Below, one piece after another: positions 30,914-53,014 of a stretch of DNA of 64,000 bases (positions are counted from its first letter, which is position 1; the number at the start of each line of letters is the position of its first letter). The stretch lies in contig NC_069138.1 of NCBI RefSeq assembly GCF_026914265.1, positions 26,317,262 to 26,381,261 of the forward strand, read 5' to 3'. The notes below the pieces were generated by a model that was given only the letters and a program-made list of their open reading frames with translations, did no database searches and was not told the DNA's origin. A program made the position numbers and the translations under genes. The DNA is from Mya arenaria (lineage: Eukaryota > Mollusca > Bivalvia > Myida > Myidae).

Positions 30914-32496
30914 ATGAAAATTATTACTCGTAATGTTTTGCATCAAATGCGACGGATGTCAACCCATGACAATCCTTTTGTAAGTATTTTTTTATATATA
31001 TCAGTGGTGCTAAATTCGGATATGTTAATTCAGATGTTTAAGTAATCTAAATAATCTATGTCAGGTAATTCTTTAGACCTATCGATTACTTAGAGTTGAA
31101 ACAAAGTATCTCAGATTTGTAGGTGCATATTTTACTCTACAAATATATATGTGGTTTTTGGTATATCGATTAATGGTGTTGTTGTTGCCTATATATCAAT
31201 GGTATCAGTGTCAACTTAAATAATCACTTTCATCTTTTGCTATTTTAACTGTGTGCATAAACTCTTTTTAATCTGTTCTAAAACATTCAGTTGTCAATAA
31301 TTACAACCTGTCTGTTTTCAATCAGGAAGTCACACAATTTAGAAACCAGTTCTCCATTAGGCCTAAAAAAAATTACATTTGGTTCGGGTTACCCGACCCT
31401 AGCTACTGAATAGGCGCCGACCCTACTGTTTTTATAGTCAGTTTAAAAAAAAAATTGAAAAACTTAAAAATAAAAATAAAAAATAATAATTCTTTTTAAA
31501 TATGGAGTTTAAAACCTTAAATGGTTATACAGGAGATAACTTTAAAACTATTCTCCAATGATGAAAATGACATTCTTATATAAAGCCTAATAAAAAAAAT
31601 AAAAAAAAATAAAAGCCTACCTACCCTACCTATTTTTGAAAAGGATGTAACCCTAACCAAACAATTTTTTTTAGGCCTTAGCACCAGTTAAAATGTCATC
31701 CACTTCCTTTGCCTGTTATCCTATTGTGATGACTTATTTTTTAAAGCACATACTATTGTGCCATCTGAGAATTTCATGCACAGTTTTTGTCTATTTCTTG
31801 CTTCAGAGTACACACAGTACTTGAAGCAATGGTAAATATAATGTTCCGAAGTTCTGAGACATTACATCTGTCATAGCAGTAACTATATTCAGTAGTGAGT
31901 TTGGCCCAGTGAGCTTTTAGGCATGTACATGTATGTCTGCTCGGTAGTTAGTTTAAGCAATATTTTATTTCATGAAAATATATTGGGACAAAAGTTTATG
32001 TTAAAAAGCATTGGGTATTGGGGCCTTCAGCCTAAAATTTGTCAGGAAAAACACAATGTACGATGACTGTGATATTATGATTAGCATTACTTAAGATTGA
32101 ATGGTTATCTGGTCATATTGTTTGATTATATGTTATTATTTAAAACATCTGCATATCCCTTCTGATTGTTTGCAACACAGCACTAAAACTGGTTGTTTTC
32201 GAAACCAGGGTGTGAAGGATGGTCTGTCAGATCACCAGCAGAAGCTGATGGCCCGTGGTCTGCCACAACGGAGACCTATAGATGGAGTCAAGTCAGTGGT
32301 GGTGGTTGCATCTGGGAAAGGAGGAGTAGGCAAGTCAACAACTGCTGGTGAGTGGTATTCTGAGGCTAAATAAAAACATTGTTGTAAATCTGGTAATCTG
32401 AGTGACACTATTTTTCAGTCCTGACTCTAATTATTTTTTAGTTACCCTGATATATAATTAATTAAAAAAGAGACCTAGTTTATTTTGAGAACAAAC

Positions 32497-32580
<84 letters not shown>

Positions 32581-35500
32581 TGTACTTTACTATATATGTA
32601 TTTATAGTTTGAAATGATTATTTGCTTTTTTGTCTAATTTACATGTGGGCATCACTAATAGAGCTCATCTTAATATTGACAATACAGAATTGAATATCAT
32701 ATGGTTAAATTTCTGTTCTTGAAATCATCAACATATTTAAATAGCATAATAAAAGGAAAGACCAGACTATTTTCTACAGGCATTGTTTTGATAGCAAATT
32801 TTGTTAATGATGGTATTCTACTGTATATACCGTACCTGGGACATGTCTTATTTCAGTGAATCTTGCTTTGGCCATGGCTGCAAATGAACCAGTAAGTTAC
32901 AGAAGCATGTGCATGTATAATGATACATATAAATGTTTAGAAGTACATGTACACATTTGTTAACTTTGACAGATTTTTGTTAATGAGTTAATGAATATAT
33001 TCAAACCATAAAGTTTTAAGTAAAGTAAACATTTCGCCACTACTAAATATTACAAAAGTTCCAATATTTCAGCTGGTACAAGTGTGAGAGCCATGTATAG
33101 GACTTCTATTTTTCCTCACAAAATTGTGATAAAAATCAACCAGTTTGGTGTTGCAGAAGAGGAACATAGGTTTGCTGGATGCAGATGTGTATGGACCATC
33201 TCTACCCACCATGATGAATCTGCAGGGGGAACCCTTTCTGGATGACAGTGAGAATATTATCTATTTTTAGCTCTTCTGATTTTCAATGGGAAAATCCTAT
33301 CTGGATGACAGTTAGAATATTATCTTTTTTTAGCTCTTCTAATTTTGAAGGGGGAACCCTTTCTGGGAATCAGTGAGAACATTATATGTTTAAGCTTGTC
33401 ATATTTACATGTATGAAGAAAAAAATAGGATGTCGTTTTAGTGTCAGCATCGGTGGTGTTCAAAATTTAATTAGTTGTGCAACTTTCATTTAATTTTGGC
33501 CATTACACCAAATCATTCAAGTTATTCAAATGAAACTTGGAACACATGTTATGAGTGACAATATGCATTTGTGAACATGTAGCAATGCCCATAACTCCTG
33601 CTTTAATAGTTGTTGAATTATGCCCCTTGCTGACAGAAAAAACAACAAACAAGTGTTGGTCTTTGCTCCACGGCATTCTTGTTTTAAAATTGAATACAGA
33701 TCTAGATTTGTTATTCAATCTTAAATTGCAATGTCAATGACTTGATTTTTTTTCTCTTTGCAGAAAACCGCATGATTCCTCTTACAAACTTTGGAATAAA
33801 GTGGTGATTATATTTTTTCATTTTCTAGCAGTTGTAAAGGCACCAAAATCATTAAAAGTTAGATCCTAAAGCTCAGTGGCTGATATTTTTTTTATCTTTA
33901 TTTTAGTAGCTTGTCAATAGTTTGTTTCACTTTACCAAGATTTTTAACCTCATTTTTGCTGCCATTACCTCACATCTTCTTGTGTCCTTTCAGCATGTCA
34001 ATGGGTTTCCTTGTGGATGAGAAATCTGCCATAGTGTGGCGAGGACCAATGGTAATGTCTGCTGTACAGAGGCTGCTCAGGCAGGTGGGTGGGAGGCAAA
34101 CTTAATTAATGTTTTGTGTTGTTGTTTATTAAGAATATGTTAATAGTCGAGGTATTGTCTTGGCCCTGGTGTCAGAGAAATCATCAATTGTGCAAAGACT
34201 TGGCCATTACTCAAAAACTAGTGAAGATATTCTCATGAAATTGTGTAAACATATTACATGTTACTTGGCCATTACGCAAAAAGCAGTCAATATATTTACA
34301 TGAAACTATTTACACATTCTACCAGTGACAACATTCATGGAAATTAGACTTTGATAAACAATTCCGAATCCTAATACATGCACTAGTGCTTGCTATCAAC
34401 AGATTTCCCAACAAGCCCTGCTTTATAAAATCGAGAAGTTTGAGCAAGCCCATAAAGTAATAAACCAGTACAGGGCCCATGAGGGGTAATTTTTCATGGC
34501 TTCCCAGAAATGGACTACAGTACTAGTTTCTACCTATTAAGAAATGGACTCAAACTTGATTCTATTTACAAGCTATCAGCTTTTGTCATAATACAATTAA
34601 GAAAAATAAGTATAAACTGAATAAAATGTATATAACAACAAAAAACCTCTTTACTCCAGGTTGCGTGGGCACCCCTTGACTACTTGTTTGTGGATATGCC
34701 GCCCGGGACTGGAGACATTCAACTCTCCCTCTCCCAGAACATACCCATCAATGGTAAGACTGGATATTTCAACTTTGAGAACTTACATGAGGTATAAAAT
34801 AAATGAGGTGCAATGTTACCTATTAATCATGTAAGGAGAATATTTATTCGCTGTTGAGATCATGAGAGTTGCATAATATTAAATGTATTAAAAACTGTTG
34901 CCCTAGACTAGACATTTGTTAGTATGAAAGAGAACAATAGAATGAAAACATTCCAGCTCAAATCAGAAACATCTGGAATTATTGAAAAATCATTAAAATT
35001 TTAACCAATTACCGTATTACTCTATATGGCATGTGTACATTTTCATGACTTTTTAAGGAAATAGTTCATCTTAAAAACATGTGTATGCTGTTTTCACATA
35101 AGAGAAAGTAAATTTGGTAACACTTTAATTTCAATGTTAATTATAGGAGCAGTGATAGTATCAACTCCACAGGACATTGCCCTCTTAGATGCCAGGAGAG
35201 GAGCTGAAATGTTCAGAAAGGTTGATATAACATACCATTCGAATAAAATAATCGCCTTCTGCTAGTTGAGATATACCAAATGGAGGTGCACCTCTAAATT
35301 TAAGATGCTCCTCTATCTAAAAGAGGTGCACCTCTGCATTAGATAGGCTTTGATTTCATCAAAAATTCTGCACCTCTATTTTTAGATTATATACAGATTG
35401 AAGATCTTTGAAGGTATAACTAAAATTCTTTATTGAAACGGTCCCAAGGAGTATCGGACAAGTGTATAACTAATCCATTAAACAGAGATGGTTTATCATT

Positions 35501-37407
35501 TTCAGGCAATCATGATGAAGACATAAACTGAATGTGCCCCCTGTTACAGGTGGATGTCCCAGTCCTTGGGCTAGTAGAAAACATGAGTGTCTACATCTGT
35601 CCCCAGTGTGGCCACCAGGAGCACATTTTTGGCCAAGACGGGGCCAAGGGGCTGGCTGAGGATATGGGCGTGGATATATTAGGTATGGCAGTAGAACATA
35701 CTTCTCTCAGTTTCACAAGTTCTCTTCACATTATTGTTAGGCTAATTGACCAAGGCTTCAAAGAGTTTGCAGCCAGTCCAAGAATCACACCAGTCACCTA
35801 GGTCCCCTTGCTTGCAAGTCAGGCGCCCTACCTACTGAGCTTACCAGTGTCGTTTTCTATTCACACACATTGAATTGAAAACAGATGATTTAATAAAGTA
35901 ACCACAGAAATTCGTTAATAGCCTTCACTCTCTATTGCAGGCAGTGTACCACTGACTCGCGCTATACGAGAGACCAGTGACTCAGGGCAGCCTATAGTAG
36001 TGTCCGATCCAGGCAGCCCACAAGTATGTATAACCAGACGTCAATGTATACTGACCAGTCCGACTGGGACTAGATATTAAATACATATCCATGGTGTTGT
36101 CAGTGTCATAGTGCAAAAACCATGGCCATATAATAAAATTGTATTAAAGCTGCACTCTCGAAGATTGTCAGTTTTTACACTTTAATATTTTTGCTGTCGG
36201 AATCGACTGATTTAAATATTTGACATAGAAATTGTTAAAAAAAATGAAAATACTATTTTAATTCTAATATTTACTGTGGAAATACACTTCAGATTTTTGT
36301 CAATTTTGATAAATCAATTATGAAATTTATCTCAAAATCCATCACTAGTGTGTGGTGTAACAGTGCTCGTCTTCGTTACAAATTTACCTTGAATATAGAA
36401 TGAGACAATATATTTATAATGATTTGTGGGGTTAAAGCTGCACTCTCAAAGATTGACCGTTTTGGCAACTTTTTTATTTTTTGCCTTGCAATGCGCCAAT
36501 TTAGGCATAACTGTCTGTATACCAATGAAATAAGAACGCTGGCTAAAGATTTATGGCTAAAGTGTTAATATATTTTATGAAATATGAATTTTTCAGCTGT
36601 TTTTCAAACATTACAAATCTGTTCTATTGTGAGTTATCTTATATGACTGAAATGAAGACTGAAATGAAGGCATTTATGCCAAAATCAGCCAATTCTGAGA
36701 CAAAATACAAAAAAATTGTCAGATTTGTCAATTTGTGAGAGTGCAGCTTTAATATCACTTGATACCTTCTGGAGCTAATCCCATGTATTGATGATCTTCA
36801 TCATCTTCTTATCTTTATTGACATTATGCCATTTTGGGCCTTTCGGACATAAATATGCTTTTATAATTTTATTGGATACCAGGTATTTGAATTAAATTAC
36901 ATTTCAGGAGGTTTTACAGAAAATTTCATTATGATATCTTGTATTGTGTAATATATGTGTTTACAAGTGGGACCATTAATTTTGTTGCACATACTGAATT
37001 TGAGTCCCAGATTTGAAGTAACGCACATGAGAAATTACATGCAAAATTAGCGTATCAATATTGCAACTAGTTTATAATTTTAGTTGTTTTCATTACACAG
37101 AATCTTGATGGAACATAAATAAAGAAATAATTGATGATTCATTTTCGTATTTAATCCATCTGGCCGATTTTAAACATTAACAATGAATGCAGTCAAATTA
37201 AGTTGGGACCAAATCCATGGTTGCTACGGTAATATGAGTCAACTTATGGTCATAAATTGTAAAGAAAATGTTGCACCAATGATAATACACTCATTTGTTG
37301 TTATTTCTCTTCATGGTATGTTCTTTCTGCATCTCTTTCAGGCCACAGTGTACAGAGATATTGCTAGAACCATAGCTGACAAACTGTCTACTTTGGAGAA
37401 AACATAA
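30914..37407 (+). CDS. nubpl: NUBPL/IND1, mitochondrial Fe-S P-loop ATPase for complex I assembly
   Basis: Eleven exons: 30914-30979, 32209-32347, 32857-32891, 33157-33247, 33764-33803, 33994-34084, 34660-34753, 35147-35220, 35550-35682, 35941-36023, 37342-37407. Every phase agrees: 912 nt, 303 aa (human 319 aa). The protein binds a [4Fe-4S] cluster and delivers it to respiratory complex I in the mitochondrial matrix. Visible: an Arg-rich N-terminus without early acidic residues ([16 protein letters not shown]), deviant Walker [10 protein letters not shown] (58-66), [10 protein letters not shown] (86-95), [27 protein letters not shown] (166-173), [11 protein letters not shown], and the cluster-binding C-P-Q-C (227-230). 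All introns are GT-AG; the intron 8 donor (GTTGAT) is weak. A possible ATTAAA signal is at 37466-37471. Head-to-head with trmt10b. Confidence 0.96.
31357..31680. mobile_element. MITE family C (TTAGGCCTAAAA ends)
   Basis: Ends TTAGGCCTAAAAAAA and TTTTTTTTAGGCCTTA. Interior: GGTTACCCGACCC, GGCGCCGACCCTAC and, at the right, GAAAAGGATGTAACCCTAACC. Copies at 41494-41786 and 60959-61275 (opposite orientation). In nubpl intron 1. Confidence 0.8.
32499..32573. repeat. (TA)n microsatellite, nubpl intron 2
   Basis: About 37 pure TA units. Confidence 0.97.
33229..33390 (+). repeat. three tandem copies of the nubpl exon 4 donor edge
   Basis: The end of exon 4 plus its donor (CTTTCTGGATGACAGTGAG) is followed by two decayed copies at 33297 and 33359, period 62-63 bp, each with AGAATATTATCT-like intron sequence and TTTTAGCTCTTCT. 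The second copy has GTTAGA where the donor GTGAGA was; the third has CTGGGAATCAGTGAG. Confidence 0.75.
33480..33720. repeat. dispersed bivalve-style repeat in nubpl intron 4
   Basis: Contains TTCAAATGAAACTTGGAACA, CAATGCCCATAACTCCTGC and GAATTATGCCCCTT, phrases typical of a dispersed molluscan repeat. A related piece is at 34190-34345 (GCCATTACTCAAAAACTAGT). No coding content. Confidence 0.5.
35740..35860 (-). mobile_element. possible tRNA-derived SINE fragment
   Basis: Minus strand contains AGCTCAGTAGGTAGGGCGCC then TGACTTGCAAGCAAGG, a tRNA-like A-box and anticodon arm. No intact tRNA fold was found, so a SINE head or tRNA relic in nubpl intron 9. Confidence 0.4.
36148..36435. mobile_element. 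fold-back MITE family D, degenerate or one-ended copy
   Basis: Begins AAAGCTGCACTCTCGAAGAT as in the full copies but has no recognisable right end before the next copy starts at 36436. Confidence 0.5.
36436..36748. mobile_element. fold-back MITE family D copy (nubpl last intron)
   Basis: Ends AGCTGCACTCTCAAAGATTG and AATTTGTGAGAGTGCAGCT, flanked by TTAA both sides. Same family at 38714-39069, 47139-47493 and 49800-50159. Confidence 0.8.
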
Positions 37408-42189: not shown

Positions 42190-45100
42190 CTAGAACTCAA
42201 CATCAATTGACATACTACTTTCATCGTCGCCATCATTTTCCTGATCTTGAGTGTTCAACCCTGCAGGGCTCCTAGACAGTTCGGTCCCAAGACTAGGCAA
42301 ATTCCTCTCAACAGGGCTAAGCTGTAATCTATTTTCCGGGCTGGGCGAAGTTTTTTTCTCCGGACTTGGTAGACTGCTCGAGATTCCTCCAAATTTCACT
42401 AAATAGTCGTCCATCTCCTTCACAGCATCTTGTCTCACGGATTCAGAAATGCTTTGTGACAAATCTATCTCAGTTTTCTCACTAACAGTTTCCAAGTCTC
42501 TTTTACTAGGGCAGGTAACTATATTTTCACTGAATGACACAAAGTCTTTTGAGTTGCTCCCCTTTGTTAGGAGATCCTTCAGTGTTTGATGTTTTTTTCC
42601 AAGTTTGTACATTTCACCAGGACTATGGTTTATTTGTTCACTGGGATGGTCCTGGAATGGAAACTGGCTGCCTTTCCTTTTCTTCAGTATCTGAAAGCAC
42701 ATTTACCAATTTACGATTATGATTTACCGTTTCAATTTTCTGCAGTGAATGATGAACTAATTATAATGTTTACTTTTTTCATGACTGCCGCCTGTTTCAG
42801 CCCGTCTCCTTTAAAGGGACTTAACACCAGATGGTCCAAAAATCAGCAAATACAGTATTTCCTCAACACAAGCCTAGAATTGACAATGCGAGTTAGTAAG
42901 AGGCTGACAATACATCATTTTACATGATTTAAATAATAAACACAACAATCATGTTGCTGTCTAATCTGTTCTTCCCCCTTTTAAAAATAACGCATAATGG
43001 TTTTCCAGTTTAAATCAGGTCTGTTTAGGAGTACTGATAAATATACCGACACTAGTTTTAAACTTACAGGGATTAACGTGTTAGACAACCCCAGTAAATT
43101 TTCTTATTAGATAAATGCACAAGAACTGCGAAAGATACATGTGTCGTAAGCGATGTGACACATCAGTAAGTAAGATCGATGTGTTGTACACAACAATGTC
43201 AATTTGATGCAAGTTTTTGACAATATTTTTTCTTGCAATTGCATCATCCGGCATCAAGTCCCTTTAAAACCCAAGTTTTCTAGAATCTTTTTTGCCATTG
43301 GTTCAATACAAAAAGACATTGCCAAATGCAGACAGCTAAGAAAAGAAAATCTGCAAGAAAGCAAATTTTTTGCACCATAAAATTGAATTTATTGAACATC
43401 ATCCTTAATTAAATTTTGAAGAACGAGGGGAGAATTCTACTTGATATAATTTATTATTTTTATTTAATATTTTTTCGCAAAACAATTGCCAATGATGTAC
43501 TTTGAATAATTATTTTTGAATCTAATGATATGTTGTGTATAAAGGTACTAAACAAACTTTTATTAGCATAAGCGGCCGACCTCATAGAAACATTTCCCCC
43601 CAAAAAGGTTTCATTATTTAAAAAAAAAAAAAAAAAAAAAAAAATACAAGGTTATTCGAGAAAGAGGGATGTAAAAAAAAAAATATGTTGCATTGAATGA
43701 ATTGTTCAGAATTATTTTAACCTAACAACATGATTAACATGAATTATTTGATGATGTCAGTGATTTCAATAAGAACCGGCTGCCGGCCAAAATGGACGGT
43801 GCAATTTGGAAAACTAAATGAATTTTAAGTAGAATAAGTAGAAGTAGTTACTTTACTATTTGAGACAGTTCAACCGAAAGTTATTGAGAACCCTGTGATG
43901 TGCTCATATATTTAAATGAATCAATGTACAGCTGAAACAGATGTCTCAAATCGTGTTAAAAATACTCCTGGTCACAAGTTTATCCATTAAAAATACAGAC
44001 CAGTCCAGACTGAAGTTAACAATGGTTATAAATTTACATAATTCTGAACATTCAGTCTTATGTTTTTATTTGGCCTAATGAAAAGATATTTATTTAATGA
44101 TTTTTTTCGAATGAAATGTTTTATTTAAAATTAATGTAGAAAAATGGATCATAAAGCAGGACGTAAAAATGAATGTTGCAGTGAATGAGAAACTAAACAT
44201 TGTTTTAATGTGGCCGAATGAAAGATATTTTAACACACTATAATACCTACCCTTTCTGCGGACCGATGGAACTCCACACCCATGTACATTGTTGTGATGC
44301 AGGGTTAAGGATAGTAAACATACATTTATATATTTCTGTTGAAGGGATTAAACGATGCTTCAATATTGTTGAAAATCAATTGTTTTCCCTCAAAGTCTGC
44401 GTTACCGGATTATGATTTTCAAAAACTGATAAGCGATACAATCATATTAATAATAATTTTTAACACAGTCTTTTCTGCTTATTACAATATTAAGAAAAGG
44501 ATAGACTTTGTATTGGCATCTACTGTGCCTTCTGGTATTGGGTGTACATTAAATGTGGGGGGGAGGGGGGGTAAATGGGAACAAAATATAAATTATGATT
44601 TATTCCAAATGAGTTGTTTCAAATCCGAATTTAGTTAACATAATGAACAAAAATAAAACCAGCAATATAATATTAATATGATAAAATTATTATGACATAT
44701 CAGTCATTTATTGTAAGATTTATGTAAGAAATAGTCTCCTCCAAACGACTCCAAAATTACACAGGGTCAGCTGAGACAGCAAAATTGAGTATTTATGTGT
44801 CAGATTTCTGAAGATGGGTTTACTTGTATTTGATATTTAAGCATAAGTGTTCATTCTATCAACTGAACATAATGTTGAAACACTTCTATGTCATAAAAAA
44901 TAAATTTTGTCTCTTGAAATTCAAATGAGGAAATCCTTGTCAAGAAACTTAAAAAAAAAATATTTGAAAATTTGAATCAATACTCTCGTGCAGAAATGAC
45001 ATCACTAAAGAGAGATTGTAGAGCTACAGTAAAATCCCACAAGAGCAGTCACAGACTGCAATATCCCCCACCTAATTAAGAACAGTATCAACTTCGCATG

Positions 45101-48100
45101 ATGACAAAGGATAACAATGAAAATTAACAAAAAATGATGCCCCGAAAACATTAATAATAAAGTAATTGCAGTTCGCTTCTTTACACTAAATTTCAACAAA
45201 ATTGGATTTGAAATTGCCTTTTTCACAATTTGCAGCGGCCAAAAAAAGGGTGTATCTAATATATTTTCAGCAATTGTTTTACGTTTCCGTTCTCTTCTCA
45301 AATGATGTGAAAATAATATAGGGTCGCCAGGCTTCCAAAATTCATTTAACTGTACATTGGAAACCATGATATCATTTCATGCCAAAAACAGTGGCCATTT
45401 CGTCTGTGTTAATTCACTGTCTATCTCATGCAAAGAACTACCAAAAAAAATATCCCAAAAGGTGAAAAAAATAAATGATCGGAAAAATACTGTTGGCTGG
45501 CAGACAATGCGAATGTCCGTCGGACAGTCGGACATGTCCGGTATATTTCCATTTTGACCGACGAAACTTTTGTTTTGGTCGGTCACAATGTCCGGTGAAA
45601 AATTAAAGTCAGCACCGTCTAATTTTCGGAAAATTTACTTTCAGTTTCTAAATAAATGTTCAGAGTTATTTTTAACTATTATATCATGATTATTCAGCAT
45701 GTTAATCCGTGTATCACTATTTGTAAACCCCGTTTCGACATGTTTCCGTAAAAGCCAATAAAACGCGTTAGGTTCCGATTTCAGTTTGTAATCTAATACT
45801 TTTATTTTACGGAATTGTTCGGAAATTACAAAATTCCGTATGTATTTATTTTCGGCGAAGTGGTTCCCGGCAATCGTGTTAATTTAAATGTGATGATTAA
45901 TATACCGAGCTGACTTTCTTTCCGCTCTGTTTAACATTGCCAATAACAAGAACTCTACTTTCGTTTTTGCATAAATGTTGTGCCTGAGTTTGACTTGTAG
46001 TACAATTCGTTACATTTTATAACCGTACTGTATCTTTAAATTAAAGATGAATTAAAAGAGTAAGATCTAGCTGTTCCATGGGTAGACGAACCAGATATGA
46101 GTTTTTTTTGGGAGGCAAGGGAAGAAAAAAATTGACATAAGATCCGAATATTGATTTTTTTTACATGATGTTTGGCTTTTTTTGTAATTTATTATAGTAC
46201 TGTAGGACAAATCTAACCAAAAAGATCTAGACCTATTATAATGGGAACAAAACTTATTTAAAAAAGAGGCTTAAAATCAAGGTTTAGGCTGATGTAACTG
46301 AATACTGTTTGTAACATTGCGACAGGTAAAAATTTGGTGCGACAGGTAAACTTTCAGTGTTTACCTGTCGCAATGTCCTGTGAAGAAGAAAAAGTTTTCG
46401 CGTTGTCTGGGCTGGCTCTAAAAAAGTTAAGGTCGGTGTGAAAAAATATTGTAGGTAAAGGAACCGGAAATCATTTCTTGCTTTGCCTTCTTAGTAAGTA
46501 TGTTGGCTAGAAAAAGGATATGATTTGTATTTTCCCTTCCTCTTGATTTCTACAAGAGGGAAGACCAGCCTTATAGCTCTGTTACACTGTGATCCCCAAT
46601 GGTAGGCCTGCTCCCCGGGACTCGCCCCTAGCACCAGCAGTAGTTCCTGTCTGTAGACACCAGTCTCCATACATCCTGTCCACTGTACAACAGCTGGAAG
46701 TAGAAATAGATATTTGTTATATTTGCCTGGACTGAAGGCCTACTCCCCGGGACTGGCCCCAAGAACCAGCAGTAGTTCCTGTCTGTAGACACCGGTCTCC
46801 ATACATCCTGTCCACTGTACAACAGCTGGAAGTAGAAATAGATATTTGTTACATTTGCCTGGACTGAAGGCCTGCTCCCCGGGACTCGCCCCTAGCACCA
46901 GCAGTAGTTCCTGTCTGTAGACACCGGTCTCCATACATCCTGTCCACTGTACAACAGCTGGAAGTAGAAATAGATATTTGTTATATTTGCCTGGACTGAA
47001 GGCCTGCTCCCCGGGACTGGCCCCAAGAACCAGCAGTAGTTCCTGTCTGTAGAAACTTCACCCAAGGCAACATGTTCCCAGCCGAAAAGCTTGAAAAAGA
47101 TTTTTTTTGTTTTAAAGAATTACAGAACCCCAACTTAAAGCTGCACTCTCACAGATTGAACGTTTTGACAATTGTTTTCATTTTTTTCTTGGAACGAGCC
47201 AATTTTTGCGAAAATCAATGAAAACCAGTGATACAAGACTGCTGACAAAATTTAGATCTCAGATTTTTATATTTAAGTTCAAAAATTGATGTTTTATGCA
47301 TTTTTCTTAAACTGTTAGTAACGGTTTAAGCCATAAAACATTATTTTTTTAACAGAAATATGAAAATCTACGATCTGATTTTTTGTCAACAATCTTATAT
47401 CATTGGTTTGCAGATATTTACGCAAAAAGTTGCTCTTTCCAAGACAAAAAATAAAAAAAGTTGTCAAAACGTTCAATCTGTGAGAGTGCGGCTTTAATGT
47501 TGATTTCAACAGTTACTATAACCTCCAGTTATAGAGGTTTCCATCATTTTGTGATATTTTACAGTTTGATCACTCTTCAGTGCTCAGAGTCAAGTGCAAT
47601 TCAGCCCCAAATGCTCAGACTTATATATCCCAAACCAGTTTTGCATGATAAAGAGATTGAGTAATAGCAGAGAAACAAACCCACATTTTTTATAACTTTT
47701 CTGCCAATCTTTTTTTAAATCAATATGGATTATTCGAAAGAAAAATTGTAATTCTCTATTTAAGTCAAAATGAAGCCAATTTTAACTGATTTTCCCAATC
47801 AAAAAGACCCTAGTCCTATTCCTTATATGATGAGAAATGTACTGTCTTTTATTTTTTATTAGCCTACGTGACCAAGTCAAATAATTTCATTGGCTGTGAC
47901 ATTTTACTTCATGATCTACTTTCCAGGGTTTCAATGTTAAAATCTAAGTTGGTAATTACTTAATGACTGTGTCTGTCTGCCTTTAGTTTCCTGTTAGACA
48001 ATGCTTACAGCTGGCCTTCCCTAGTGGTTTAATACAACAACAGCTCATTGTCCATTACAAATGTCCTGCAACATCTCATGTCAAATATCAAAACTTTTTT

Positions 48101-51100
48101 ACTAACTTGGTAGATGGTCAACAATTCTTTGTGTCTGCCTTAAGTTTACTGTAAAGACAATGCCAACAGCTGGCCTTCCCTGAGTTTACTGTCAAGACAA
48201 TGCCAACAGCTGGCCTTCCCTGAGTTTACTGTCAAGACAATGCCAACAGCTGGCCTTCCCTGAGTTTACTGTCAAGACAATGCCAACAGCTGGCCTTCCC
48301 TGAGTTTACTGTCAAGACAATGCCAACAGCTGGCCTTCCCTGAGTTTACTGTCAAGACAATGCCAACAGCTGGCCTTCCCTGAGTTTACTGTCAAGACAA
48401 TGCCAACAGCTGGCCTTCCCTGAGTTTACTGTCAAGACAATGCCAACAGCTGGCCTTCCCTGAGTTTACTGTCAAGACAATGCCAACAGCTGGCCTTCCC
48501 TGAGTTTACTGTCAAGACAATGCCAACAGCTGGCCTTCCCCGAGTTTACTGTCAAGACAATGCCAACAGCTGGCCTTCCCCGAGTTTACTGTCAAGACAA
48601 TGCCAACAGCTGGCCTTCCCCGAGTTTACTGTCAAGACAATGCCAACAGCTGGCCTTCCCCGAGTTTACTGTCAAGACAATGCCAACAGCTGGCCTTCCC
48701 CGAGTTTACTGTCAAGACAATGCCAACAGCTGGCCTTCCCTTGTGGTTAAATACAACAACAGTAACACATAGTCCATTGAGAATGTCTGAGAACATCTCA
48801 TGTCAAATTTCAAAACTTCTTACTTACTTGGTAAATGTTCAACAATTCTCTCAGTGTCCGCATTCAGTTCTCTGGAAGATGATAACAGCTGGGCTTCCCT
48901 GGGGGGTAAATGGAACAGCGACTCATTGTCCATAGGGAATGTCTGTACTGTGGTGGGGCACTCTATCATGGTGATGCCATAATAGAAGGTTGTGCGAAAA
49001 GTTAAGGTAAATCGTTTGTAAAAGTGAATCTATCATTAAATAACATATCATTTTAGGCTACAAAACATTAAGGTAGGAAAACCATGATATTAAAATTTCA
49101 TGGCGTAACACTAGTTCTTGTGATTATTCAAACAACAGTATTTGAACCATCATCATTAAAGGTCAACTTCAACCTATGGGTAACATACTATTTACAGTTT
49201 GCAATTTAATACAGTTAGGACAAGATAACACTATGATATCTTGTTATGTAAGGTTTGGTAAAAGGATGTTTTTTGTATTTCCCCTTGCGCTGTGCCTGGC
49301 TGTTCGGGAAGAGCTCTCTGATCGCACGATTACATGCTGATGACCAGATTAGAGCGTCGTTGAAATCAGTAGTTGAGCTGATACAATAGAGCAGGTTGTC
49401 TCGAGAAACACTACCCCTCTCACTCTCAACCAAGTACTCTGAAACAAAGGGGCAACGAGTTTCAATGAAAAAGAAATAACTATTTAACCTTTATCAGCGT
49501 TTTATTTACTTTTTTGTGAATAGGGCCAGGGCTCTTTGAATTGTGAAAAAAACTTCAAAATGCCCAAAATTTTGAATTTACGATAAAGTTTATTTAAAAC
49601 AAAGAAACAAAGCTAAGCCCCCTTGAAGATCCTGGGTTTGAATAATTTTAGGAGAACAAGACTGCATTTAGACAAATCTGGGCAAGAAACATATCTAGGC
49701 AAGCAGACTTGTTAAAGAGTAAAAAAAACAAAGTCATCAAAAACCTCATGCAAGTACGGATTAAAGTCATAACCAAATATTGCCTTATTTAGACATTAAA
49801 GCTGCACTCTCACAGATTTACCATTTTTACAACTTTTTTATTTTTTGTCATTGAAAGAGCAGATTTTTGCGAAAATATCTGTAAACCAGTGATAAAAGAC
49901 TGCTGACAAAAGATCATATCGCAGACTTTCATATTTCCGTTTGAAAATTAATGTTAAAATCATGGCTTAAACTGTTACTAACGGTTTAAGAAAAATGGAT
50001 AAAACATCCAACTTTTGAACTTAAATATAAAAATCTGTGACCTTATTTTTTGTCAGCCGTCTTATATAACTGGTTTCAATGGATTTTCGCAAAAATTGGC
50101 TTGTTCCAAGACAAAAAATAAAAAAAATGTCAAAACGTTCAATCTGTGAGAGTGCAGCTTTAACTGATAATTGGTATTATTTGCGTTATATTTTTCAAAT
50201 GAGAATCAAAAGTTTGTGTTACTTGCAGTCTCATATATACATAGTACATTGCAAATTAATGTACCTGGGAAGAGTTCCTTCAGTTTATGGACCCTCCAGT
50301 TTTCCCCCGTTTCACATGTTCCATTTTCTAGAGCAGTTTTCCCTGTAGGACTGCCTCGTCTTCCATCATTTCCTGACCCTTCAGTTTCCATCTTGCTTTC
50401 AAACAGCTGGGAACAGTTTCTCTGATATCCGATTGGACAGGAGTAGTCAGGTGACCCCCTCATCAAAGATGGCGAACTCTGGTGATCTGGACCTGGACTA
50501 GAAGTCTGCAGCATGTTCCATAGCATTGATTTGTGCACTCTGTCGAAGTGTTTCTCATACTCATCAATCCTATGATATTGGAAGCTACAAGCGTGACAAT
50601 TCAGAGGTCTATCAGAGGCAACACAATCTCGCTTTTTATTATCTGCATCTGATTCAATTGCCTTGTTTTCTGGACTATTTGTGTTTCTTGACTTCTCATT
50701 TTGCAATGATATATCACCTTTGTTAGTAAACTTTCCTAGCAGCTTATTTCTAAGAAAAGCCATAATTGAAGAGGTTGGCGCAGGGCTGTTTTGGTGTTGG
50801 TTGGTGGTTTTCCCATCATCTTCACTTTCTGAATCCGCAGTCTGGTCATTCAATGGATTTCTGGTAAATCGTTTACGTTTTTTAATGACCATGTCCACAG
50901 GACATTCACTGGGTCTTTTTGTGTTGTGTCTTGCATTTTCAAAAACAGTACATGAAGAATTTCCATAAGGTGAAACTACTGGTGTTTTTATTTTGTGGTT
51001 AAAAGGTGCGGACTTAGAATGTACAATGTATTTATGGAACAAACTCGGCTCAGGTTTTCTCGGGTTTTGGTTGTAAGCCTGACTGTACAAATATGGATTG

Positions 51101-52893
51101 TTGCTTTGACTCAGGATTTGTGAACTTATACAAGGATTTTTGGGAACACCACTGTTTTCAACATTCTCATTCAAACCTTCATCCTTGTCAGATAATGTAC
51201 TCTCAGGATTCAGTACTCTCCTCTTGTGACTAGCCAAGTTACAGTGTGCTTGAAATGTTGACTTGATAGGGGATTTCCAGTTGCATATCTGGCAGAAGTA
51301 CACAATATTCCCCCCTTCTCTAACGAGCTTTGTAAATTTCCCGAACTCTGCAGTTGAAGCTGGTGTAAAAGGAAACTTGTTATCTGGATCTTTTGACCGA
51401 CTCCTTCCCTGAACATCAGATTTTGCAATTTGGTCAGTAATTTTCTTAATGTCAATATCACATCTCTCCTTAGTTTTTGAACTTGCAGCATTAAATGTTG
51501 CTAGAGTTTCATTCACAACTTCACCTTTCTTTGTGAGGTCCAAAGATCCATTCAAAGTTTCTATTCCGGTATGATCCACCAACTGTTTTGGATTTTGGAA
51601 GTCATGTGATGGTTTTGATCTTTTTACAATCTTTGCTCGGAATTGTCTATGCCCTGAAGAGTCTGAATCACTGTCATTGACACTCTCATGATCTTCATTG
51701 GTATTACCATGGAAATCTGTGACATCACTTCCTTCTATGTCACATGATATGCTGATGTCACTTCCTGTGTGGGAAAACATCATATGCTCTTTCAGATCTT
51801 CAATTGTCTGAAACTGTAATGAACATGATCCACAGGAATGAGGTTGATCACCTTGTGACAAATGCAGTTTGTTTACATGGTCTATGAAACTCTGCTTTGA
51901 TGTCATTATAGAAGGAATAGTTGTACAAAGTGTACATTTGTAAAGTATTTCAGCAAATTTCATAACATTCTCATTGTCATTGTTCTTGTACTCCTTTTTA
52001 TGTGCATTTCCCTTCTTGTAAGCTTTTGAGGTCTTATTACAAACACCAAGTAGATTGAGAGTTTTACAGGAGTCTTTAGTTTCATTTAACCAAGCTCTAA
52101 GATATTGCACAGGAGGGTTTTTCACTACACTGATCATCTTTTCACCATTTTTAATTCTAGTCATGTCATTAGCACTCGACTGGACATTTCTTTCACTTTT
52201 CACTTTGTTGGTGTTGCCTTCATCAGTGCCCACATCACCTTTAGTCCTTGGTGACATCAACAACATTTTCTTCTTGCTTTCACTGATCACTCTGTTAGTG
52301 GTATCTTCATCAGTTTTATCACTGTCCCCATCATTTACATCCTTGACATCAACCTTTTCTGGTTTCTCAAACCAATGTCCTTCATTGTTTCCTATTTCAT
52401 CATTCTGACCACAATTTTCTTCTTCAGAGTGATCAGTCACTTTACTTGAATCTTCGGTCACTTTATTTTCAGCACCTCCTACTTCATCCATTCCAGAGAA
52501 ATCACTGTCCAGGTCCAGCTTAACAGCATCTTTCAGACAAAATTTTGATTCAGCACTTCCTTTGTTAGAATCATCCATACCTCCAACATGTTTATCTTTC
52601 AGGCAAGCTTTAGTTTTGCTGGTTCCATTCTCATAATCATCAATGTCTTGCACATTTGTTTCATGATAATTCTCTGTCTCAAGTTCATGTTTATCTGAAT
52701 CCACAACCTTATCTTCCTCCTTAATATCTTTATCTTCTTGATACATTTCATTGCAGTTTTCACTTGGACTGTCCATGTATCTTCTGCAGGACGTAAAGCT
52801 GGGGATTTTAAGAATTCCCGACGACATGGAGCATGGGCAGGAGCTAGCTGCCAGCATCTCTTGTTGTTGCCTTTGAGGACTTAAACTGTTCAT
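42190..52893 (-). CDS. C2H2 zinc-finger protein with two tandem RFX-like winged helices, six exons
   Basis: Exons (minus, 5' to 3'): 50265-52893, 49270-49438, 48828-48991, 46522-46693, 44251-44293, 42190-42690. The phases join to 3678 nt, 1225 aa. Domains: acidic Ser-rich N-terminus; C2H2 fingers at C320-H344, C354-H375, C534-H556 and C766-H787; a basic stretch KKRKRF (671-676), a likely nuclear signal; first winged helix about 865-945 (VSRDNLL, ACNRAIRELFP, RKGKYK-K-TFYYGI); second about 980-1055 (VYRQELL, QCNRAIRLVFP, KRKGKYK-S-TMYMGV); a disordered SPxK-rich tail ending MSIDVEF. The ending resembles the RFX R-x-x-G...Y-x-Y-Y-G-I motif. Introns 2 and 4 need AT-AC type splicing. ATG 52893 follows an in-frame stop; a 5' UTR acceptor lies at 53012. 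Role inferred: nuclear DNA-binding regulator. I know no named orthologue. Confidence 0.82.
42815..43263 (+). mobile_element. MITE family A copy
   Basis: Ends AGGGACTTAACACCAGATGG and CATCCGGCATCAAGTCCCT, TTAA on both flanks. In the last intron of the zinc-finger/RFX gene. Same orientation as 63159-63594. Confidence 0.8.
44294..46521 (-). other. putative U12-type AT-AC intron in RFX-like domain 2
   Basis: 2228 bp. Donor ATATCCTTTT, an exact U12 AT-AC donor; branch-site-like TATCCTTAAC ends about 10 bases before an acceptor ending CATCAC. Joining TC + A gives serine and completes KYKSTMYMGV. Same codon position and phase (2) as the intron in domain 1. Confidence 0.82.
45480..46440. repeat. unclassified repeat-like segment inside the second AT-AC intron
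   Basis: Holds inverted motifs GTCGGACATGTCCGG and GACCGACGAAAC near 45520-45600 and several GCGACAGGTAAA motifs near 46320-46375. Minus-strand open pieces (for example PDIVTDQNKSFVGQNG) look like relics of a coding repeat. A second CCTTAAC at 46426-46432 is followed by TTTTTTAG, but that acceptor gives no G-x-Y-x-G ending, so it is not used here. Confidence 0.4.
46575..47057 (-). repeat. 132-bp tandem repeat carrying the exon 4 acceptor and start
   Basis: CTCCCCGGGACT recurs at 46611, 46743, 46875 and 47007 (132-bp period, a multiple of 3). Each unit is intron end (CTATTTCTACTTCCAG) plus the first part of exon 4 of the zinc-finger/RFX gene. Units alternate between CTCGCCCCTAGCACC and CTGGCCCCAAGAACC, an A-B-A-B order, so a 264-bp pair was probably duplicated. 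Only the copy starting at 46693 continues into the complete exon. Confidence 0.85.
47139..47493. mobile_element. fold-back MITE family D copy
   Basis: Ends AGCTGCACTCTCACAGATTG and CAATCTGTGAGAGTGCGGCT, TTAA flanks; palindromic arms about 170 bp. In the intron between exons 3 and 4 of the zinc-finger/RFX gene. Confidence 0.85.
47930..48820 (-). pseudogene. two decayed copies of exon 3 of the zinc-finger/RFX gene
   Basis: Two further copies of the 3' half of exon 3 with its donor: one at about 47930-48060, one spanning about 48061-48820 and split by the minisatellite. Shared landmarks on the minus strand are AATGGACAAT, GGGAAGGCCAGCTGTT and the donor-like CTACCAAGTTAGTAA (functional exon: TTACCAAGTAAGTAA). 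Neither copy keeps the reading frame. Confidence 0.75.
48141..48740. repeat. 40-bp minisatellite, exactly 15 units
   Basis: Fifteen 40-bp units, TGAGTTTACTGTCAAGACAA then TGCCAACAGCTGGCCTTCCC. Unit 1 (48141) has TAAG/GTAAAG variants, units 2-10 start TGAG, units 11-15 start CGAG; otherwise identical. Forty is not a multiple of three, so the plus-strand ORFs across it are artefacts. Confidence 0.97.
48992..49269 (-). other. putative U12-type (AT-AC class) intron in RFX-like domain 1
   Basis: 278 bp. Donor ACATCCTTTT (one base off the U12 consensus ATATCCTTT, giving AC instead of AT at the start), branch-site-like CCTTAAC at 49001-49007, then TTTTCGCAC and the acceptor ends AC. No GT-AG alternative keeps the frame. 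Joining AA + A gives lysine and completes KYKKTFYYGI. Confidence 0.75.
49800..50159. mobile_element. fold-back MITE family D copy
   Basis: 360 bp, ends AGCTGCACTCTCACAGATTT and CAATCTGTGAGAGTGCAGCT, TTAA flanks. In intron 1 of the zinc-finger/RFX gene. Confidence 0.85.
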
Positions 52894-53014
52894 TTCAGAA
52901 TTAATTCTAAAGATTCACATATAAGACTTGAAGAATGTTTAGTTGAGGTATATGCATGTCCATTTTTAAGCCCATCATTCATGCCTTAATCATCCAGTTA
53001 TGTCACAGCACCTG
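52894..53014 (-). other. probable 5' UTR part of exon 1 and its acceptor
   Basis: TTATGATTACAG|GTGCTG on the minus strand gives an acceptor at 53012-53013, so exon 1 would run from 53011 with about 118 bases of leader and at least one non-coding exon upstream. An in-frame TGA lies about 27 bases before the ATG at 52893. Confidence 0.5.

Follow-up and report, generated by a model that had tools for sequence, protein, structure and literature searches.

Voltage-gated sodium and calcium channel genes are built of internal repeats. The SCN and CACNA1 genes of this kind are recorded with U12-type (minor) introns, two per gene, and about 50 human genes, most commonly those of ion channels, are reported to contain two such introns (PMC3584512, PMC2831892). 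Here we describe a minus-strand gene of the bivalve Mya arenaria, located within a stretch of 64,000 nucleotides (NCBI RefSeq assembly GCF_026914265.1, contig NC_069138.1, positions 26,317,262 to 26,381,261 of the forward strand; hereafter, the window), which resembles the channel genes in having two predicted U12-type introns but encodes another protein and has mixed intron ends, AC-AC in one case and AT-AC in the other. We consider it likely that this is a single coding gene with two tandem RFX-like domains, that a minor intron inherited from an RFX gene was duplicated along with the domain, and that the donor of the first copy subsequently changed from AT to AC. The actual splicing, the direction of the change at the donor and the common ancestry with RFX we infer. 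No description of paired minor introns in a domain repeat was found in the open-access literature, which was covered mostly at the level of titles and abstracts.

The six-exon model on the minus strand (52914-42190) forms a single frame that stays open for 1232 codons, the count beginning where the open frame begins, and then reaches a stop codon; the phases at the ends of the exons are 1, 2, 1, 2 and 0. Its parts are as follows.

Exon 1, 50265..52914, minus strand: limits of the open frame, whose first Met codon lies near 52893; encodes C2H2-like zinc fingers; ends at KELFP in phase 1.
Intron 1, 49439..50264, minus strand: GT-AG, phase 1.
Exon 2, 49270..49438, minus strand: 169 bases; domain 1 as far as KGKYK-K; ends in phase 2.
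Intron 2, 48992..49269, minus strand: U12-type by its signals, AC-AC, ACATCCTTTT ... ACCTTAACTTTTCGCAC, 278 bases, phase 2.
Exon 3, 48828..48991, minus strand: end of domain 1 (TFYYGI) and start of domain 2; ends at VEHLP in phase 1.
Intron 3, 46694..48827, minus strand: GT-AG, phase 1; contains partial exon-3 copies, an array of 40-base units and additional copies of the first part of exon 4.
Exon 4, 46522..46693, minus strand: 172 bases; domain 2 as far as KGKYK-S; ends in phase 2.
Intron 4, 44294..46521, minus strand: U12-type by its signals, AT-AC, ATATCCTTTT ... ATCCTTAACCCTGCATCAC, 2228 bases, phase 2.
Exon 5, 44251..44293, minus strand: end of domain 2 (TMYMGV); ends in phase 0.
Intron 5, 42691..44250, minus strand: GT-AG, phase 0.
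Exon 6, 42190..42690, minus strand: C-terminal tail and stop codon.

None of the zinc-finger matches in exon 1 reach the Pfam cut-offs, and exons 1 and 6 gave no match to the NCBIfam models, which are bacterial and archaeal.

The consensus of the U12-type donor is (A/G)TATCCTT, and the U12-type branch site is TCCTTAAC-like and lies about 10-15 bases from the 3' end of the intron. The donor of intron 4 (ATATCCTTTT at 46521) fits this consensus, and the donor of intron 2 (ACATCCTTTT at 49269) fits it except at position +2. The 3' ends are TTTACCTTAACTTTTCGCAC/AACC at 48992 in intron 2 and ACTATCCTTAACCCTGCATCAC/AACA at 44294 in intron 4 (slashes denote splice junctions). The respective branch sites, ACCTTAAC and TCCTTAAC, leave 10 and 11 bases between the second A and the 3' end. 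A previous sequence-only reading of this locus had placed CCTTAAC about 10 bases ahead of both acceptors, in agreement with the distances to the exon of 9 and 10 bases; its placement of the ends of exons 2 and 4, in each case after KGKYK plus two bases in phase 2, was borne out by the joined frame, and the sequence across its junctions 49270/48991 and 46522/44293 indeed reads KK-TFYYGI and KS-TMYMGV. Its description of the two introns as paired AT-AC introns holds for intron 4 but not for intron 2, which is AC-AC; because intron 2 starts with AC, the pair as a whole falls outside the AT-AC subtype. Judged by their signals, introns 2 and 4 are both U12-type.

Some of the evidence counts against this classification. 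The AC at positions +1/+2 of intron 2 deviates from the usual U12 donor, which according to PMC2831892 shows strong conservation of the T at +2. In addition, the predicted duplexes between the branch sites and the U12 RNA of this genome were no better than those of shuffled sequences (47% and 36% of which were as good), under a duplex model that gives no reward for a bulged A. The duplexes between the donors and the genome's U11 RNA were modestly better than those of shuffles (6% and 2% as good). Duplex energies with the small nuclear RNAs were discarded as a test of the signals, being not discriminating. The genome encodes U12 (three loci), U11 (two) and U4atac (two) RNA genes that score above the Rfam cut-offs; this and all other genome searches covered the 1.216-Gb assembly of 18 contigs, with the window lying within contig C17.

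Non-canonical U12-type ends, namely CT-AC, GG-AG and GA-AG, are on record (PMC2831892), and most non-canonical ends are stated to be one base off a canonical pair (PMC10639083). Introns of this kind (with CT-AC, GG-AG, GA-AG, AT-AA, AT-AT or AT-AG ends) resemble intron 2 in combining odd ends with otherwise preserved U12 signals. AC-AC ends in U12-type introns were not reported in the open-access literature searched, parts of which were available only as excerpts. Under the mechanism that we propose, introns 2 and 4 would be substrates of the minor spliceosome, with U11 recognising AYATCCTTTT and U12 recognising (A/T)CCTTAAC, and the joining of KK/TFYYGI and KS/TMYMGV would complete the respective domains. 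The minor intron would then lie between the wing-like KGKYK segment and the last strand of each domain. According to PMC8280824, minor introns starting with AT require CENATAC in human cells and are spliced less efficiently; introns 2 and 4 might share both the dependence on CENATAC and the lower efficiency.

Comparison of the two domains points to duplication. Domain 1 spans exons 1-3 and domain 2 spans exons 3-5, and CNRAIR-x-x-FP and RKGKYK-x-T-x-Y-x-G are common to both. Their local alignment score is 112, compared to 22.9 +- 4.3 for shuffled sequences, and none of the 2000 shuffles attained 112. Exons 2 and 4 are both entered in phase 1 (after KELFP and VEHLP, respectively) and left in phase 2, and the domains share two intron sites, a major-class one in phase 1 followed by the U12-type one in phase 2. 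Thus, the locus displays what is expected of tandem intragenic duplication: the copies are homologous, and their introns agree in position and phase. The putative duplicated unit, which consists of exon 2, the minor intron and exon 3, is symmetric, running from phase 1 to phase 1. Given two matching introns per domain, the simplest interpretation is that exons were duplicated together with the minor intron between them. The sequence-only reading had made the same proposal, which is upheld by homology far above the shuffle level together with the two matching intron sites, and tandem duplication of the domain appears well supported. Tandem duplication of this unit would have produced the paired minor introns. 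Further copies of either domain were not detected in the genome: all six matches fall within the window gene, and they include the repeated beginnings of exon 4.

The signals of the minor introns are far from unique in the genome. The donor sequence of intron 2, ACATCCTTTT, occurs 10,804 times on both strands, with about half that number (5,277) for the reversed-pattern control, and ATATCCTTTT occurs 8,545 times on both strands (reversed-pattern control, 6,966). Within the window, AYATCCTTTT was observed six times against an expectation of 1.04, five of the six matches being ACATCCTTTT, and CCTTAAC-N(4-12)-AC gave five matches, with the sites of introns 2 and 4 counted twice each, against 4.06 expected. 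Neither the donor motif nor the branch-to-AC pattern is rare by itself. The weight of the evidence comes from the coincidence of both signals in two related exons, where they share codon and phase. For a site named in advance, the probability that both signals fall precisely on it, codon and phase included, is roughly 1e-10 per intron, a figure that is a rough product and pertains to a site picked after being seen. The genomic copies of ACATCCTTTT are partly clustered, for instance at C1:13122273-13123461, and four further copies are found in the window, at 31639, 38191, 41744 and 60987.

The Pfam model of the RFX DNA-binding domain, PF02257, had 17 matches in the genome, eight of them over the cut-off, in five loci, and the intron site could be read in all five. 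The locus on contig C16 is RFX5-like (PF02257 E-value, 6.9e-30; best match in the PDB, RFX5, 8zjr_M, E 1.2e-27). Its intron, C16:30809944-30808426, runs from ATATCCTTTA to TGTCCTTAATGTGAGTGCAG over 1519 bases in phase 2, has the signals of a U12-type AT-AG intron and sits five codons ahead of the conserved glycine; its splicing restores RGQSRYFYGGLRKR, which aligns there with RFX5 without gaps. Thus, the RFX5-like gene is similar to the window domains in the intron class, in phase 2 and in the distance of five codons to the conserved glycine, but differs from them in the AT-AG ends, the TCCTTAAT branch site, the clear RFX match and the single domain seen in the stretch read. Three other loci, two on C4 and one on C5, which we take to be RFX4/6/8-like, are similar to the window domains in the codon and phase of the intron relative to the glycine but contain major-class GT-AG introns; the codon and phase are the same as in the RFX5-like gene. 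Altogether, a split codon five positions upstream of the conserved glycine was observed on C16, in both C4 loci, on C5 and in both domains of the window gene. At the C13 locus, presumably RFX1-3-like, a phase-2 GT-AG intron lies upstream of this position by another four codons, and the site is not shared. At a locus on C6 that scored below the cut-off (23.9 bits) and is presumably ARID2-like, the end of the RFX domain was not found within 19.8 kb.

A minor intron in RFX5 or RFX7 was not reported in the open-access literature searched, to the extent that the papers were available, and the apparent U12-type AT-AG intron at this site of an RFX5-like gene, matching the window domains, is to be considered new here. 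AT-AG introns as such are listed in PMC8280824 and termed disfavoured in PMC3584512. The presence of a U12-type intron at this codon of the RFX5-like gene, and of GT-AG introns there in three other RFX genes, suggests that the RFX domain had a minor intron long ago. The minor intron at this site is probably older than the window gene, which would have inherited it from an ancestral RFX domain gene. The proposal of the sequence-only reading that the first donor drifted to AC gains support from parsimony, as ATATCC is found both in domain 2 and in the RFX5-like gene, and the AT to AC change would be the later event. It is plausible that an old minor intron of the RFX domain survived at three places and turned into a major intron at three others. 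The more specific scenario, in which an ancestral RFX-domain minor intron predates the split between RFX5/7, RFX4/6/8 and the window gene, and the window gene has a working AC-AC intron, seems possible but on balance doubtful. Conversion from minor to major is taken as the usual direction (PMC10639083), AT-AC introns are seldom converted (5 of 79 single-subtype conversion clusters; PMC2831892), and molluscs are noted for a relative enrichment of minor introns (PMC10639083).

The link to RFX requires caution on several counts. When the two domains were joined, PF02257 gave 17.8 bits, below the cut-off of 27; taken singly, neither domain 2 nor domain 1 (the latter including its true N-terminal part) showed an RFX match in Pfam, and domain 1 had a weak match to PF04768 (E 0.066). 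The window gene was not among the 17 genomic matches of PF02257. In the profile-profile comparison (hhalign), the window domains matched RFX with a P-value of 0.0013 but a probability of just 18%, and the two-domain profile had no match in the PDB; another search of the domains against the PDB returned one irrelevant match, THR6 (E 0.48). The best scores of domain 1 were obtained with the C4 locus at 40.96 Mb (48), the other C4 locus (43) and C5 (43), the RFX5-like domain scoring 41, and by sequence domain 1 is not tied to RFX5 in particular. Domain 2, compared with three domains, reached 37 against the RFX5-like one, a score matched by 18 of 2000 shuffles; its scores against the C4 locus at 70.57 Mb (matched by 355/2000) and against C13 (503/2000) hardly differed from those of shuffles. 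Finally, the distance between FP and the glycine is two residues shorter in the window domains than in the RFX genes, and MAFFT places the resulting gap after the intron site, so that the window and RFX sites come to lie two codons apart. Conversely, hhalign places the gap before the site, and the sites coincide. We prefer the latter placement on structural grounds, because the gap then falls in the loop of the wing and leaves the last strand uninterrupted.

Thus, it could be argued that the duplication is real whereas the likeness of the intron site to RFX is a convergence in a domain that is not RFX, a possibility favored by the weak profile evidence and by the ambiguity of two codons between the alignments. 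This explanation seems unlikely in view of the same phase and rare intron class in the RFX5-like gene and of the performance of an RFX profile that we built from five genes of the M. arenaria genome. This profile gave 10.4 bits with domain 1, a score reached by none of 2000 shuffles (1852 scored), and 4.1 bits with domain 2, reached by 11 of 2000 (1808 scored). The "RFX winged helix" of the sequence-only reading is a weak sequence call, with PF02257 below its cut-off. We designate the window domains RFX-like, neither RFX nor RFX5.

Returning to the preferred reading, in which both introns are removed by the minor spliceosome, we examined alternative splicing by pairing GT or GC donors, from the RAIR codons onward, with AG acceptors. 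The claim that only the proposed splicing keeps the frames open held for intron 4, which has no frame-keeping GT/GC-AG alternative in this range, but not strictly for intron 2, for which there are three weak alternatives (one GT-AG and two GC-AG) that insert or delete domain residues. Intron 2 could, in principle, be an ordinary major-class intron that uses other sites, the ACATCC signal being a decayed remnant or a chance match. The frame-keeping GT-AG pair, AGT/GTTATC at 49229 to GATAG/ATT at 49029, and the abundance of ACATCCTTTT in the genome and in the window speak for this possibility. However, the donor at 49229 matches only four of the nine consensus bases, the AG at 49029 is preceded by pyrimidines at just 8 of 15 positions, and about 26 residues would be added within the best conserved part of the domain, whereas the U12 reading agrees with domain 2 at KGKYK-x-T-x-Y-x-G. 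We regard the major-class alternative as improbable. If retained, intron 2 would stop the frame 17 residues past KGKYKK, and intron 4 nine residues past KGKYKS; because retention of either intron ends the frame early, both minor splicing events appear to be needed for the full protein.

The region continued to duplicate, as seen in 132-base units, partial exon-3 copies and an array of 40-base units. The 132-base units (46604-47053; 3.4 tandem copies, 95% matches) comprise the last part of intron 3 with its acceptor and the beginning of exon 4, and because 132 is a multiple of 3, alternative acceptors could alter the length of domain 2. Within intron 3, a 40-base unit similar to a portion of exon 3 is repeated 15 times at 48143-48741, and partial copies of exon 3 adjoin this array. 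A dispersed element with inverted ends (AAAGCTGCACTCTCACAGATTGAACG...) is present at 47135-47497 in intron 3 and at 49796-50163 in intron 1, flanking exons 2-3; further copies of its ends are located at 36434 and 39038, and one copy is found on C12.

Contig C12 also contains a broken relative of exon 1 (C12:27376270-27384183), with 78-82% protein identity in the three best pieces and many stops, in which the middle part is present five times in tandem. The idea that this locus is a processed fossil cDNA was rejected. Pieces of exons 1 and 6, stretches matching introns 1, 4 and 5 and the dispersed element align in about 35 kb of C12; exons 2-5 were not detected there by blastn (E up to 1e-3), with weak tblastn matches only, and the C12 locus is accordingly uninformative with respect to splicing. 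The broken relative, together with the tandem arrays within introns and the partial exon copies, might indicate that the window locus itself is decaying and has ceased to be spliced altogether; considering its one open frame of six exons with consistent phases, we find this quite improbable.

The remaining alternative, that the two minor introns were gained independently at one site or that one of them was converted from a major intron, has a precedent in one U2-to-U12 conversion reported in Diptera (PMC2831892) but is very improbable, given that both copies share the codon and phase of the minor intron as well as the phase-1 neighbor intron, that a third U12-type intron is apparently located at the same site in the RFX5-like gene, and that conversion is assumed to proceed almost solely from minor to major (PMC10639083).

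Elsewhere in the window, open frames on the plus strand at 32101-35801 resemble, on our assumption, a NUBPL/Mrp-type ATPase, and a 333-codon frame on the minus strand at 195-1196 resembles a LINE ORF1-type protein.

The persistence of minor introns, changes of their ends and their conversion to major introns have mostly been studied across species. If the shared position holds, a single genome harbors the one intron site six times within one protein domain, and the introns there have ends of four kinds. If the ancestral scenario is true, AT-AC, AC-AC, AT-AG and GT-AG represent a natural series of minor-to-major conversion. Furthermore, the sister minor introns in one transcript differ at position +2 of the donor, and the cost of that base could be measured side by side. 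Under the same ancestral scenario, the window gene would require minor splicing twice to produce the full protein. Because retention of either intron leads to an early stop in the frame, the output of the gene would be expected to track the activity of the minor spliceosome.

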